A stretch of 64,000 nt of DNA from Butyrivibrio sp. AE2015 (GTDB taxonomy: Bacteria > Bacillota > Clostridia > Lachnospirales > Lachnospiraceae), in contig NZ_ATVR01000009.1 in assembly GCF_000420825.1 (NCBI RefSeq), forward strand, positions 1-64,000, written 5' to 3'. The notes under the pieces were generated by a model that saw only the letters and a list, made by a program, of their open reading frames with translations, ran no database searches and had not been told where the DNA came from. A program made the position numbers and the translations under genes. Positions 8,013 to 58,511 of the stretch are shown here, piece by piece (positions within the stretch are counted from its first letter, which is position 1; every line of letters starts with the position of its first letter).

Positions 8013-8537
8013 ATGAATCGGATCAATGGGCAAATAATTGTAACTGCATTATTATTTGTTATGCTCACACTTTTTGGATGTGGAAAGTCTGAGATAAGTG
8101 AAAACGCTATTTCCAGTGCAGCTTCTGTTGCGGAAAAATCAGAAGCTGTACTAGAAAAATATATAGTTTCTGCAGATGAAGATTCATCGAAGGCTTTAAT
8201 TGATGAATACGGAATCTATGACAGCAAGGATGAAGTAGCTCTTTATATTGTGACTTACGATAAACTTCCATCCAATTACATTACCAAGAAAGAGGCCAAA
8301 AAGCTTGGTTGGAGCGGTGGCTCTTTAGAAAGCTATGCTCCGGGGAAGTGCATTGGTGGAGACTACTTTGGAAACTATGAAGGAAATCTTCCAGAAGATG
8401 CAGAATATCATGAGTGTGATATAGATACTCTTGGGAAAAAGAGTCGTGGGGCTAAACGCATAGTTTATTCTGATGACGGATATATTTATTACACAGAAGA
8501 TCACTACGAGACGTTTGAACTTTTGTATGAACCATGA
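8013..8537 (+). CDS. Barnase-type ribonuclease with lipoprotein signal
   Basis: 174 residues. Residues 1-23 form a lipoprotein signal peptide (LTLFGC, Cys near 23), then a Ser/Glu-rich spacer to about 60. The rest aligns by eye with Bacillus barnase: YDKLPSNYITKKEAKKLGW, APGKCIGGDYFGNYEGNLP, and the end AKRIVYSDDGYIYYTEDHYETF. The catalytic residues are all there: Lys of NYITKKEA (barnase K27), Glu of HECDID (E73), Arg of AKRIVYS (R87) and His of EDHYETF (H102). It is therefore likely an active guanyl-preferring RNase tethered outside the cell. The barstar inhibitor gene follows 108 bases downstream. Confidence 0.92.
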   Translation: MNRINGQIIVTALLFVMLTLFGCGKSEISENAISSAASVAEKSEAVLEKYIVSADEDSSKALIDEYGIYDSKDEVALYIVTYDKLPSNYITKKEAKKLGWSGGSLESYAPGKCIGGDYFGNYEGNLPEDAEYHECDIDTLGKKSRGAKRIVYSDDGYIYYTEDHYETFELLYEP

Positions 8538-8645
8538 AATCTATTTATTTGGTAGCTTTATGAACTGAATGACATGAGGATATGTGCAGCATCTTTTAAT
8601 TGAATGTTGAGAAAAAATTCTGCTAATAAATTATGAGGTTTTGTC

Positions 8646-8921
8646 ATGGAAAAGGTCTTCTATATTGATTTATCCGGAATAGAAAGCAAAGAAGAATTCC
8701 ATAAGGTGTTAGAAAGAGAGCTGCCTCTTCCTGATTATTATGGAGGAAATCTTGATGCATTGTATGATGTGCTGACAGATGTTTCCGATGAATGGAACAT
8801 TATTTTTTACAATTCTACAGACCTTAAGCTTGGTATGGAGAAATATTTCAGTAGCTTTGAAAAGCTTTGCAGGAATGTGACCAAAGAAAACGAATGGGTA
8901 AGAATACGCATATATCCTTAA
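8646..8921 (+). CDS. Barstar, barnase inhibitor
   Basis: 91 residues, the usual barstar length. The inhibitory helix PDYYGGNLDALYDVLTD carries the residues that plug the barnase active site: barstar Tyr29, Asp35 and Asp39 all have counterparts. It neutralises any barnase that stays in the cytoplasm. Its location just after the lipoprotein barnase makes a cognate pair nearly certain. TATGAGG lies upstream of the ATG; the gap to the barnase gene (108 bases) is long enough for its own promoter. Confidence 0.93.
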   Translation: MEKVFYIDLSGIESKEEFHKVLERELPLPDYYGGNLDALYDVLTDVSDEWNIIFYNSTDLKLGMEKYFSSFEKLCRNVTKENEWVRIRIYP

Positions 8922-9000: not shown

Positions 9001-9029
9001 TTGACTTTGCACGCTAAGTCTCGTAAACT
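9001..9029 (+). promoter_or_regulatory. Promoter of the Mn2+ riboswitch transcript
   Basis: TTGACT (9001-9006), 17-base spacer, TAAACT (9024-9029). The aptamer would begin about 10 bases after the predicted start of transcription. Confidence 0.6.
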
Positions 9030-9045
9030 AAATACAGTTAATTGG

Positions 9046-9204
9046 TAAGAGGGAGTAGCTGGCCGATGTTTTGTTGGCAGCCAGATCCGTCAGGACGATG
9101 CGAGAGCATCCGAATCTGGCATAAGGTTACATTTTCGCGTAGCGATTTGAACTGACAGCAAGACTTTTATCATAGCTGCTTGCTATGGTAAAGGTCTATT
9201 TTTA
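9046..9204 (+). ncRNA. yybP-ykoY (manganese) riboswitch with terminator
   Basis: The closing stem TAAGAG (9046-9051) pairs with CTTTTA (9164-9169). It is followed by the family signature GGGAGTAGC and closed by AGCAAGACTTTTA. A middle arm, GCCAGAT with CGTCA on one side and a CCG and ATCTGGC on the other, matches the second conserved metal-site loop of the family. The 3' strand of the closing stem is also the 5' strand of a terminator hairpin (9161-9197: AGACTTTTATCATAGC with GCTATGGTAAAGGTCT, then ATTTTT). Mn2+ binding should stabilise the aptamer and turn the downstream permease on. This region fills the 339-base gap between barstar and the permease. Confidence 0.92.
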
Positions 9205-9260
9205 TGTCTGCTGACAAGGCCTTTACAGCTGTTTTTACTTATCAATGAAGGGAGATTATT

Positions 9261-10529
9261 ATGAAAACACTAGCTATTATTCTTTTTATTCTCATGTATG
9301 TTCTTTTAATAATATTTAAAAAGCATCGTGCGAAGATTGCAATTGCAACTGCAATTATCTTTGTAGTAACAGGAATTCTTCCTTATACTCAGGTATTTGC
9401 TGCGATTGACTGGAACATTCTTCTTATGCTATTTGGTACTATGGTAATCGTTGATTATTTCATAGAGTCCAAAATGCCTAATCTTATTGCAGATAAACTT
9501 CTTGATCTTGCCCCTAATGTAATGTGGGTAACAATCCTGATGTCTCTGTTTTCCGGTATCATATCTGCATTTATCGACAATGTGGCAACACTTCTGATGG
9601 TTGCTCCTGTTGGACTTGCTATTTGTAAGAAACTTAAGATTTCACCGGTTTCAATGATCATCTGTATTGCGGTTTCATCAAACCTTCAGGGAGCTGCAAC
9701 ACTTGTAGGTGATACAACATCTATCATGCTTGCAGGCGCTGCTAAGATGGACTTCAATGACTTCTTCTGGATGCAGGGAAAACCTGGTATTTTCTTTGCA
9801 GTTGAGCTTGGCGCTCTTGCAACTGTACCTATCATGATGATTCTTTTCCGCAAGGATAAAGAGCCTGTTCATTCAGACGAGCACACAGTAGTAACAGATT
9901 ATATCCCAACAATTACAATGCTTGGCCACGTTATTTTCCTTGTTATTGCTTCATTCTTCCCTAACAAGCCTGAGCTTACAAACGGTATCATTTGTATGGT
10001 ATGGGGAATCATCAACATTGTTTGGGAGATCATTGTTTCAAAGGGAACAGACAGTATGTGGCATTCTCTTAAGGCTATCGACTATGACACAATGCTTCTT
10101 CTTGCAGGTCTTTTCTGTGTAATCGCTGGTATTACAAATGTAGGCCTTATCGATGATCTGGCTCACATCATTGCCGGTGCAGGAAAGGATAACGTATTCC
10201 TTTTGTATACTCTTATAGTATTTGGATCTGTAGCGATATCTGCATTTATTGATAACATCCCATATGTAGCAACAATGCTTCCGGTACTTGCTAGCCTTGC
10301 CGGAGTAATGGCAGTTAACCCGCTTCTTTTATACTTTGGACTTCTTATCGGTGCTACACTCGGCGGAAACCTTACTCCAATCGGTGCTTCTGCAAATATC
10401 GCAGGTGTTGGTATGCTCCGTAAAGAGGGCTATGAAGTTTCTTTTGGTGACTTCATGAGAATCGGTGTACCATTCACACTTACAGCAGTAGTTGTCGGAT
10501 ATCTGTTCATCTGGATCGTATACGCATAA
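9261..10529 (+). CDS. ArsB/NhaD/SLC13-superfamily permease, probable Mn2+-controlled ion exporter
   Basis: 422 residues with about 11 hydrophobic segments. Two similar halves carry the re-entrant motifs SAFIDNVATLLMVAPVG (about 105-121) and SAFIDNIPYVATMLPVL (about 322-338), and two matching short motifs NLQGAATLVGDTTSIML and GATLGGNLTPIGASANI. These are typical of the ion transporter superfamily that includes ArsB, NhaD and SLC13. Substrate cannot be told from sequence alone. The Mn2+ riboswitch upstream makes export of Mn2+ or a response to Mn2+ excess the best inference. Start supported by GAAGGGAG 7 bases upstream. Confidence 0.88.
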   Translation: MKTLAIILFILMYVLLIIFKKHRAKIAIATAIIFVVTGILPYTQVFAAIDWNILLMLFGTMVIVDYFIESKMPNLIADKLLDLAPNVMWVTILMSLFSGIISAFIDNVATLLMVAPVGLAICKKLKISPVSMIICIAVSSNLQGAATLVGDTTSIMLAGAAKMDFNDFFWMQGKPGIFFAVELGALATVPIMMILFRKDKEPVHSDEHTVVTDYIPTITMLGHVIFLVIASFFPNKPELTNGIICMVWGIINIVWEIIVSKGTDSMWHSLKAIDYDTMLLLAGLFCVIAGITNVGLIDDLAHIIAGAGKDNVFLLYTLIVFGSVAISAFIDNIPYVATMLPVLASLAGVMAVNPLLLYFGLLIGATLGGNLTPIGASANIAGVGMLRKEGYEVSFGDFMRIGVPFTLTAVVVGYLFIWIVYA

Positions 10530-10601
10530 ACAATAAAGACACAGAAATAATACGCCTTGTTTTCTTTCATGATTATTTATGAGAGAAAACAAGGCTTTTT
10601 T
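10530..10601. repeat. Palindromic repeat, terminator-like, partial copy of the element at 56072-56258
   Basis: GCCTTGTTTTCT (10554-10565) pairs with AGAAAACAAGGC (10584-10595) and is followed by TTTTTT, so it also works as the permease terminator. Read on the minus strand, about 70 bases (including the flank with TGTGTCTTT and CGTATTATTT) match the inner part of the element at 56072-56258. Confidence 0.8.
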
Positions 10602-58298: not shown

Positions 58299-58321
58299 TT
58301 AAAACAACTAAAGACGGTTTA

Positions 58322-58482
58322 GATAGAGGTTGCGTATTTAATGAGTATTTCTGTGGATGTGTCAGGCACAGATGAATCAGAAAAAAAGGTAAATACGCCG
58401 AAAGGTTCAATTACCTGAAGATTGGATACTTGGGCATGCAGTAAACAGCTGTATGACTGTCATCGAAAGATGGGGCGCTATC
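58322..58482 (+). ncRNA. Lysine riboswitch (L-box)
   Basis: Closing stem GATAG (58322) with CTATC (58478-58482). The conserved core is present: AGAGGTTGCG, AGTAT, ACGCCGAAAGG, TTGGATACTTGGGCA and GACTGTCATCGAAAGATGGGGCGCTATC-type end. It senses lysine and shuts off dapA by the terminator that follows. Covers the 480-base gap between typA and dapA with its promoter. Confidence 0.95.
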
Positions 58483-58511
58483 AACAATACAAATGCTTTA
58501 ACCAGGATTGT

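Follow-up and report, generated by a model that had tools for sequence, protein, structure and literature searches.

A yybP-ykoY (Mn2+)-class riboswitch ahead of a CitMHS/ArsB-fold permease in Butyrivibrio: a probable ON switch for a putative exporter of divalent cations

Background

The yybP-ykoY or Mn2+ riboswitches (RF00080) include the leaders of E. coli alx and mntP, both of which are named as Mn-sensing riboswitch genes (PMC9603457), and a leader of L. lactis. In both known structures Mn2+ is described as contacting five phosphoryl oxygens and the N7 of an invariant A (PMC6754395), and the nucleotides of the M_B site of the L. lactis RNA are given as G9, U39, C40, A41, U44 and C45 (PMC9190785). 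In the account of the latter leader, the 3' part of P1.1 joins a terminator when Mn2+ is missing, and Mn2+ brings about read-through (PMC11087558). Known targets of the class comprise MntP, the P-type ATPase YoaB/MgtA (a P-type ATPase is also given for yybP-ykoY in a review on C. difficile), UPF0016/GDT1 and TerC. These share the kind of leader with the gene described here and belong to transporter families that are unrelated to its product.

The leader under study lies in Butyrivibrio sp. AE2015, in a stretch of 64,000 nucleotides (contig NZ_ATVR01000009.1, positions 1 to 64,000) which is called the window throughout. With the leaders of E. coli and L. lactis it has in common the L1 sequence GGGAGUA, the invariant A of L3, the motif AAGAC or GAGAC followed by the 3' strand of P1, and the P2-P3 layout; with the L. 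lactis leader as described, an overlap between P1 and the terminator; and with the class elsewhere, the same families of downstream genes. It differs in having an L3 of the alx type, a weak P4, a score below the RF00080 cut-off, and a CitMHS permease downstream. Our literature search, which did not extend to Dambach 2015, Price 2015 and Martin 2019, found no report of a CitMHS/ArsB-type permease under yybP-ykoY control; an earlier mention is possible.

The leader and its gene

The elements recognized at the locus are as follows, all on the forward (+) strand; R1 is a covariance model described in the next section.

9001..9029, +, probable sigma-70 promoter, TTGACT-17-TAAACT, just 5' of the aptamer (9/12 consensus positions)
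9042..9172, +, aptamer of the Mn2+ (yybP-ykoY) class (R1 score, core in 25 leaders, covariation, cross-match to E. coli mntP and alx)
9043-9051/9164-9172, +, aptamer P1 (fold of the aptamer alone)
9051-9058, +, aptamer L1, GGGAGUAG (read from the sequence)
9088-9097, +, aptamer L3, CGUCAGGACG (CGUCA-GG-ACG; read from the sequence)
9161-9164, +, aptamer AGAC (read from the sequence)
9161..9203, +, intrinsic terminator serving as expression platform, its 5' arm holding the 3' strand of P1 (hairpin 9161-9197, 16-pair stem, T-rich tail)
9247..9254, +, Shine-Dalgarno sequence GAAGGGAG ahead of the ATG at 9261 (sequence)
9261..10529, +, CitMHS/ArsB-fold permease of 422 aa (Pfam, predicted fold)
10554..10601, +, terminator-like site 3' of the permease (consensus scan)

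The stretch 9036-9215 is more stable than its shuffled versions (z -3.8, with 1 of 200 shuffles as good), and in its minimum-energy fold the terminator is formed and P1 is absent. At the place of P4 the window has a weak hairpin; 18 of the 25 aligned permease leaders carry no insert there. The region-wide promoter scan that picked out the 9/12 pair at 9001..9029 gave about as many matches as shuffled sequence. Across related leaders, a promoter match of at least 9/12 within 65 nt upstream was present in 24 of 27, against 149 of 1080 base-shuffled windows. The terminator-like site behind the permease suggests that the gene may form a transcription unit of its own.

Directly upstream of the leader is a pair of genes for a barnase-like ribonuclease and barstar (8013-8921), which is also found 5' of the permease in relatives both with and without the aptamer. 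Elsewhere in the window there is a lysine riboswitch (58316-58488, 110 bits).

Assignment of the leader to the yybP-ykoY class

The first-pass annotation of this DNA had read a yybP-ykoY aptamer and a transcription terminator ahead of the permease, had proposed a covariance search with RF00080 as a check, and had held that a low score would refute its reading. That search was negative: RF00080 (current model, 177 positions, cut-off 45 bits) gave no match at gathering level in the whole window and none at E ≤ 10 in the 421-nt leader stretch, none over the cut-off in the window's own genome, and none that reached the gathering score at 20 loci from relatives. The positive controls behaved in the same manner. 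The E. coli mntP leader scored 44.9 bits against the cut-off of 45, and the alx leader went unreported at E ≤ 10. The model exceeded its cut-off in two of 14 control genomes and in none of 16 leaders from the window's family, eight of which lie 5' of MntP; the only sub-threshold match among these 16 was L169 with 21.2 bits. Because the controls also fall short, the miss on the window carries little weight either way, RF00080 was dropped as a yes/no test of the class, and the low-score rule is unsafe with the present model. No other Rfam class matched the leader at gathering score, the three matches seen being at chance level. As a separate observation, in five of the 16 family loci, that of a permease gene (L118) among them, RF02617 (SSRC10, a Streptococcus sRNA) gives a match at the leader that stays under its cut-off; the RF02617 RNA may itself be a leader of the yybP-ykoY class.

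In view of the failure of RF00080, we built a covariance model of our own (R1) from 25 leaders, all 5' of homologs of this permease and including that of the window. R1 scores the window, as a training member, at 74.8 bits. It also recognizes the independent E. coli leaders of mntP (32.5 bits, E 1e-6) and alx (26.4 bits, E 5e-5), and over 78 kb nothing beyond the window, mntP and alx was found at E ≤ 10. In the window's genome this leader is its single site. A second model (R2), from 100 leaders of mixed downstream genes, finds mntP with E 3.6e-9 and alx with E 1.5e-5. The core, consisting of GGGAGUAG, CGUCANNACG and AGAC, is kept in 25 of 25 permease leaders, the exception being the two middle bases of L3.

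Covariation was assessed in alignment A1, where the figures are favoured by a structure that was partly derived from the same sequences: 78.9% of cells are paired in the proposed structure, 139 cells carry double changes as against 54.1 in shuffles, and the covariation score is 0.462, compared with 0.118-0.241 when the structure is slid. In helices P1, P1.1, P2 and P3, 24 of 32 pairs are changed on both sides (shuffles 20.0, with 3 of 500 as high). P3 is the weakest helix, with 58.6% of its cells pairing in A1, because MAFFT misaligns it in some rows.

It is nearly certain that the leader belongs to the yybP-ykoY (Mn2+) class. The aptamer of the first-pass annotation is thus borne out by the R1 and R2 cross-matches, the invariant core and covariation, and its terminator by the hairpin at 9161-9197 with 16 pairs and a T tract.

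Genes behind the riboswitch in relatives

The class assignment is confirmed by the set of genes found downstream of such leaders. These were surveyed in genomes with inferred family, genus and class labels. With R1, a family sample of 100 genomes, the window's own included, gave 105 matches in 66 genomes, 102 of them with a downstream ORF of at least 75 aa. These 102 code for P-type ATPases (28), MntP (23), Na+/Ca2+ exchangers (17), OAD-beta (10), a 140-aa family (6), SPFH proteins (4), CitMHS permeases (3), ABC ATPases (3) and singles (8). R2 was applied to a class sample of 196 genomes, with matches in at least 126. Among the matches listed, 107 outside the genus were classified, leaving aside 40 others (20 selected, 1 of a tandem pair and 19 weaker); the 107 precede P-type ATPases (35), exchangers (21), OAD-beta (19), MntP (12), UPF0016 (8), ABC proteins (2), and other genes or none (10). 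CitMHS accounts for none of these 107 listed matches. Pfam was run on 10 proteins, one from each main cluster plus some singles, with the ATPase cut to 600 aa; the remaining downstream genes were assigned by BLAST, and UPF0016 by a motif pattern. Regulon members of known function move mostly Mn2+ or Ca2+. Of the targets expected beforehand, MntP, cation ATPases and UPF0016 were recovered; the list proved too narrow in that Na+/Ca2+ exchangers and OAD-beta are frequent.

Several of these genes deserve a record of their own. The OAD-beta proteins are beta subunits of Na+-transporting decarboxylases (PF03977) and are a frequent target in both samples (10/102 in the family; 19/107 in the class, among the matches listed); the family loci are L117, L120, L121, L128, L133, L172, L175, L176, L212 and L213. 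SPFH/Band_7 and flotillin-like proteins stand under the same riboswitch at L137, L138, L168, L205, L166, L264, L356 and L358. At L245 and L288, two class-level loci of one genome, the downstream protein resembles HtpX-type proteases by eye. Tandem aptamer matches about 300 nt apart precede a UPF0016-like gene at G267:C199:16058-16581.

The permease

The gene product matches PF03600 (CitMHS) with 209.9 bits (cut-off 31.9) and PF02040 (ArsB) weakly, with 35.8 bits (cut-off 22.2), and is 99% identical to the permease of B. proteoclasticus strain P18, a species to which this Butyrivibrio stands close. It misses the NCBIfam cut-offs of the ArsB subfamilies (48.7/415, 53/457 and 48/760), of NhaD (NF038006, 31.9/80 bits) and of DASS/SLC13 (72.2/198.6), as well as that of the MamN model, and is therefore filed under none of these. 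Among proteins with a solved structure, those related to it in sequence are VcINDY with its variants (6.8e-12 to 6.7e-11), SLC13A1 (4e-5) and ArsB (7.5e-5). An AlphaFold model (pLDDT 83, pTM 0.80) resembles ArsB (10tp) most among solved folds (Z 43.1 and 2.7 Å over 408 residues), with Z 38.6 for the best SLC13 members and about 35 for VcINDY. The assignment to an ArsB/NhaD/SLC13-type permease of the ion transporter superfamily, made in the first reading, agrees with the PF03600 score and the ArsB-like predicted fold.

Two motifs set the protein apart. Asp106-Asn107 and Asp331-Asn332 are invariant in 39 homologs and, in the predicted model, lie at or beside helix breaks at 105-106 and 328-331. 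The first SNT site of VcINDY reads Ile-Asp-Asn-Val in the permease, and the MNNMP site of ArsB reads IDNIP. Compared with ArsB, an arsenite efflux permease, the protein thus shares the nearest solved fold and a Pfam match above cut-off, but it has 16% identity, lies far from the subfamily cut-offs and has IDNV/IDNIP in place of ANDG/MNNMP. Similarly, it shares sequence similarity and fold with DASS/SLC13 symporters such as VcINDY, but carries Asp-Asn at the first SNT motif and stays below the DASS cut-off. The SNT loops of VcINDY bind carboxylate and Na+. With an acid at each of two such loops, a cation or H+ is a more fitting cargo than a carboxylate.

Recurrence of the riboswitch-permease linkage

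The link between riboswitch and permease seen in the first reading recurs. The aptamer stands directly 5' of the permease in 25 of 80 close relatives and reaches it through an operon in two more, L092 and L102 (1052-4269), in the order aptamer, Na+/Pi-cotransporter-PhoU, permease; at L122 an aptamer is likewise followed by a Na+/Pi-cotransporter-PhoU gene. The training set of R1 supplies 15 of the 27 matches, and at least four more are copies of training leaders; L110 (altered L3), L041 and L039 are the weakest or oddest. In two of the 80 relatives the upstream DNA is too short for a call. No aptamer match was found in 51 of the 78 assessable relatives, and most permeases therefore lie outside this switch. 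The search for neighbouring genes in these 80 relatives used nine reference proteins as queries.

Mapped onto a tree of the 80 permeases, the aptamer label requires 15 changes, of which at least 11 fall on branches with good support; shuffled labels need 22.7 on average, and none of 500 shuffles needed as few. Aptamer-linked permeases occur in each main branch. The linkage is often gained or lost. A single origin was rejected on the same count, in which gains and losses are not told apart. Among loci where the permease stands behind barstar, L034-L036 lack the aptamer and the window, L032, L033 and L037 have it, which suggests that the leader may have been gained or lost at one and the same place. 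At family level CitMHS makes up the 3/102 given above, and together with its absence from the 107 class-level matches this indicates a lineage-specific linkage.

In the genus, 35 matches were found in 28 of 41 genomes, with the permease (19), the exchanger (6), MntP (5), flotillin-like proteins (3) and other membrane proteins (2) downstream. With kinship ignored, 19 of the 28 genomes have the riboswitch ahead of the permease, six ahead of the exchanger, and none ahead of both. This exclusion suggests a divalent-cation task for the permease, and it fits a task that permease and Na+/Ca2+ exchanger share in the genus. The permease was also considered as a replacement of MntP; this was rejected, as MntP is present in 33 of the 41 genus genomes. 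These include the window's own, where MntP lacks the aptamer, and the permease is therefore not the sole possible Mn2+ exporter there.

Predicted switching mechanism

The 3' strand of P1 (9164-9172) sits within the 5' arm of the terminator hairpin (9161-9197). Calculated with energies that have no ligand terms, the terminator state (-57.6 kcal/mol) is preferred to a state with P1 enforced (-45.9 kcal/mol). A terminator-like hairpin overlapping P1 was present in 23 of 27 related leaders, as found with a lenient pattern that has no shuffled control. From this arrangement the leader is very likely a transcriptional ON switch. In one review the Mn2+ riboswitches are termed 'OFF' switches (PMC11477304); we prefer the ON polarity because the L. 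lactis account is experimental.

By this scheme, in the absence of metal the P1 3' strand would pair into the terminator and transcription would halt ahead of the permease. Binding of Mn2+ between L1 and L3 would dock the aptamer and hold P1, the terminator would be blocked and the permease made. The latter would be an elevator-type, ArsB-like secondary transporter with Asp106 and Asp331 placed at two pseudo-symmetric helix breaks, and would most likely expel Mn2+, or Mn2+ among other divalent ions, in exchange for H+ or Na+.

L3 types and the ligand

With spacing taken from residue numbers, the letters of the window match U39, C40, A41 and C45 of L. lactis at equal spacing, A41 corresponding to A9092; the place of U44 is taken by an A, as in E. 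coli alx. Mn2+ is the probable ligand of the RNA.

The aptamers fall into two L3 types, CAACAUACUG as in E. coli mntP and CGUCANNACG as in E. coli alx, which were called with patterns drawn up after the rows had been seen (L171 and L147, both ahead of MntP, versus L119, L129 and L118 may serve as examples). Among the matches listed, the mntP type is found in 36 of 39 MntP leaders (21/23 in the family sample) and 6 of 8 UPF0016 leaders. The alx type is found in all 21 CitMHS leaders (family 3/3, genus 18/18) and in most leaders of Na+/Ca2+ exchangers and OAD-beta; ATPase leaders have both. Possibly the split reflects a different ligand.

Two further groups were noted. Aptamers also stand ahead of genes for a family of proteins some 140 aa long (L151, L160, L178, L181, L183 and L194), and five of these six leaders fit neither L3 type (e.g. 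CGUCAAUCG and CGUCUUCUUG); L151, the one member scanned, had no Pfam match. L357 and L359 (G011:C75), which lie 4 kb from each other and on opposite strands, are aptamer-like leaders whose L3, UUCGACUAAGG, is unusual; they stand ahead of two other membrane proteins. Perhaps they are a variant with another ligand.

Substrate of the permease

Judged by its regulation, by the exclusion of the exchanger and by an ArsB-like fold with two Asp-Asn motifs, the permease has an even to somewhat better chance of exporting Mn2+ or a divalent cation; the first reading, which had pointed to a new type of Mn2+ exporter or an ion pump answering Mn2+ excess, is to that extent supported in part. The elevator fold of ArsB/CitMHS permeases is known for anions and arsenite. 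A wider proposal, which we put just short of even, is that CitMHS/ArsB-fold permeases with the two invariant Asp-Asn motifs are a separate family of exporters for Mn2+ (or divalent ions) and, in Butyrivibrio, hold the riboswitch place that the Na+/Ca2+ exchanger has in sister species.

The strongest competitor, still unlikely, keeps Mn2+ as the signal and makes the permease an NhaD-like Na+/H+ (or K+/H+) antiporter which answers the pH or ion stress of metal overload without being a carrier of Mn2+. E. coli alx also responds to alkaline pH. That gene has the same L3 type and is described as Mn-sensing (PMC9603457), and OAD-beta, a family of Na+ pump subunits, is part of the regulon. The similarity to the NhaD model is weak, however, its 31.9 bits falling short of the 80 needed, the regulon members whose function is known point mostly to Mn2+ and Ca2+, and the mutual exclusion of riboswitch-controlled permease and exchanger in the genus suggests a task with divalent cations.

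Less probable again is an aptamer tuned to another divalent ion, e.g. Ca2+, which the permease would expel. The L3 types partly track the downstream gene, the CitMHS leaders of the family and genus samples being uniformly of the alx type, which most exchanger, ATPase and OAD-beta leaders also fit. One review considers it likely that some yybP variants sense other divalents (PMC7266159), and another reports tighter binding of Ca2+ than of Mn2+ by the mgtA aptamer of pneumococci (PMC9495176). Against this, the alx type is that of E. coli alx itself, which is described as Mn-sensing (PMC9603457), the invariant A and the neighbouring contact letters are kept in the window, and the tracking is not strict, as the mixed ATPase leaders demonstrate.

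Export of an anion or a complex, such as Mn-carboxylate or phosphate, would be in keeping with the CitMHS/SLC13 relatives of known function, whose cargo is mostly anions, with the Pfam name, with VcINDY and its variants as the best sequence relatives, and with the operons in which a Na+/Pi-cotransporter-PhoU gene stands between aptamer and permease. We regard it as very unlikely, as Asp-Asn at the first SNT motif and again in the second half of the protein suits an anion badly, and the DASS score is 72.2 against a cut-off of 198.6. That the leader is no riboswitch, or one of another class, and resembles yybP-ykoY by chance is scarcely credible: RF00080 is silent on the window, the genome and the relatives' loci, but it fails on the E. 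coli leaders too, and the independent cross-matches, the covariation and the regulon speak against coincidence.

To the computed support, namely the RNA class, the recurrent linkage, the P1/terminator overlap, the fold and the Asp-Asn motifs, we add a ligand, a polarity and a substrate that we infer; the whole reading, of a Mn2+-class ON switch driving an ArsB-like exporter of Mn2+ or divalent cations, is one that we favour moderately.

Conclusions

RF00080 misses many leaders of its class in the family of the window, and counts made with it are therefore probably too low in that family. If the reading of a Mn2+-responsive exporter is true, a family named for citrate and arsenite would join the transporters under Mn2+ riboswitches, and two residues, Asp106 and Asp331, together with one leader would become testable handles.
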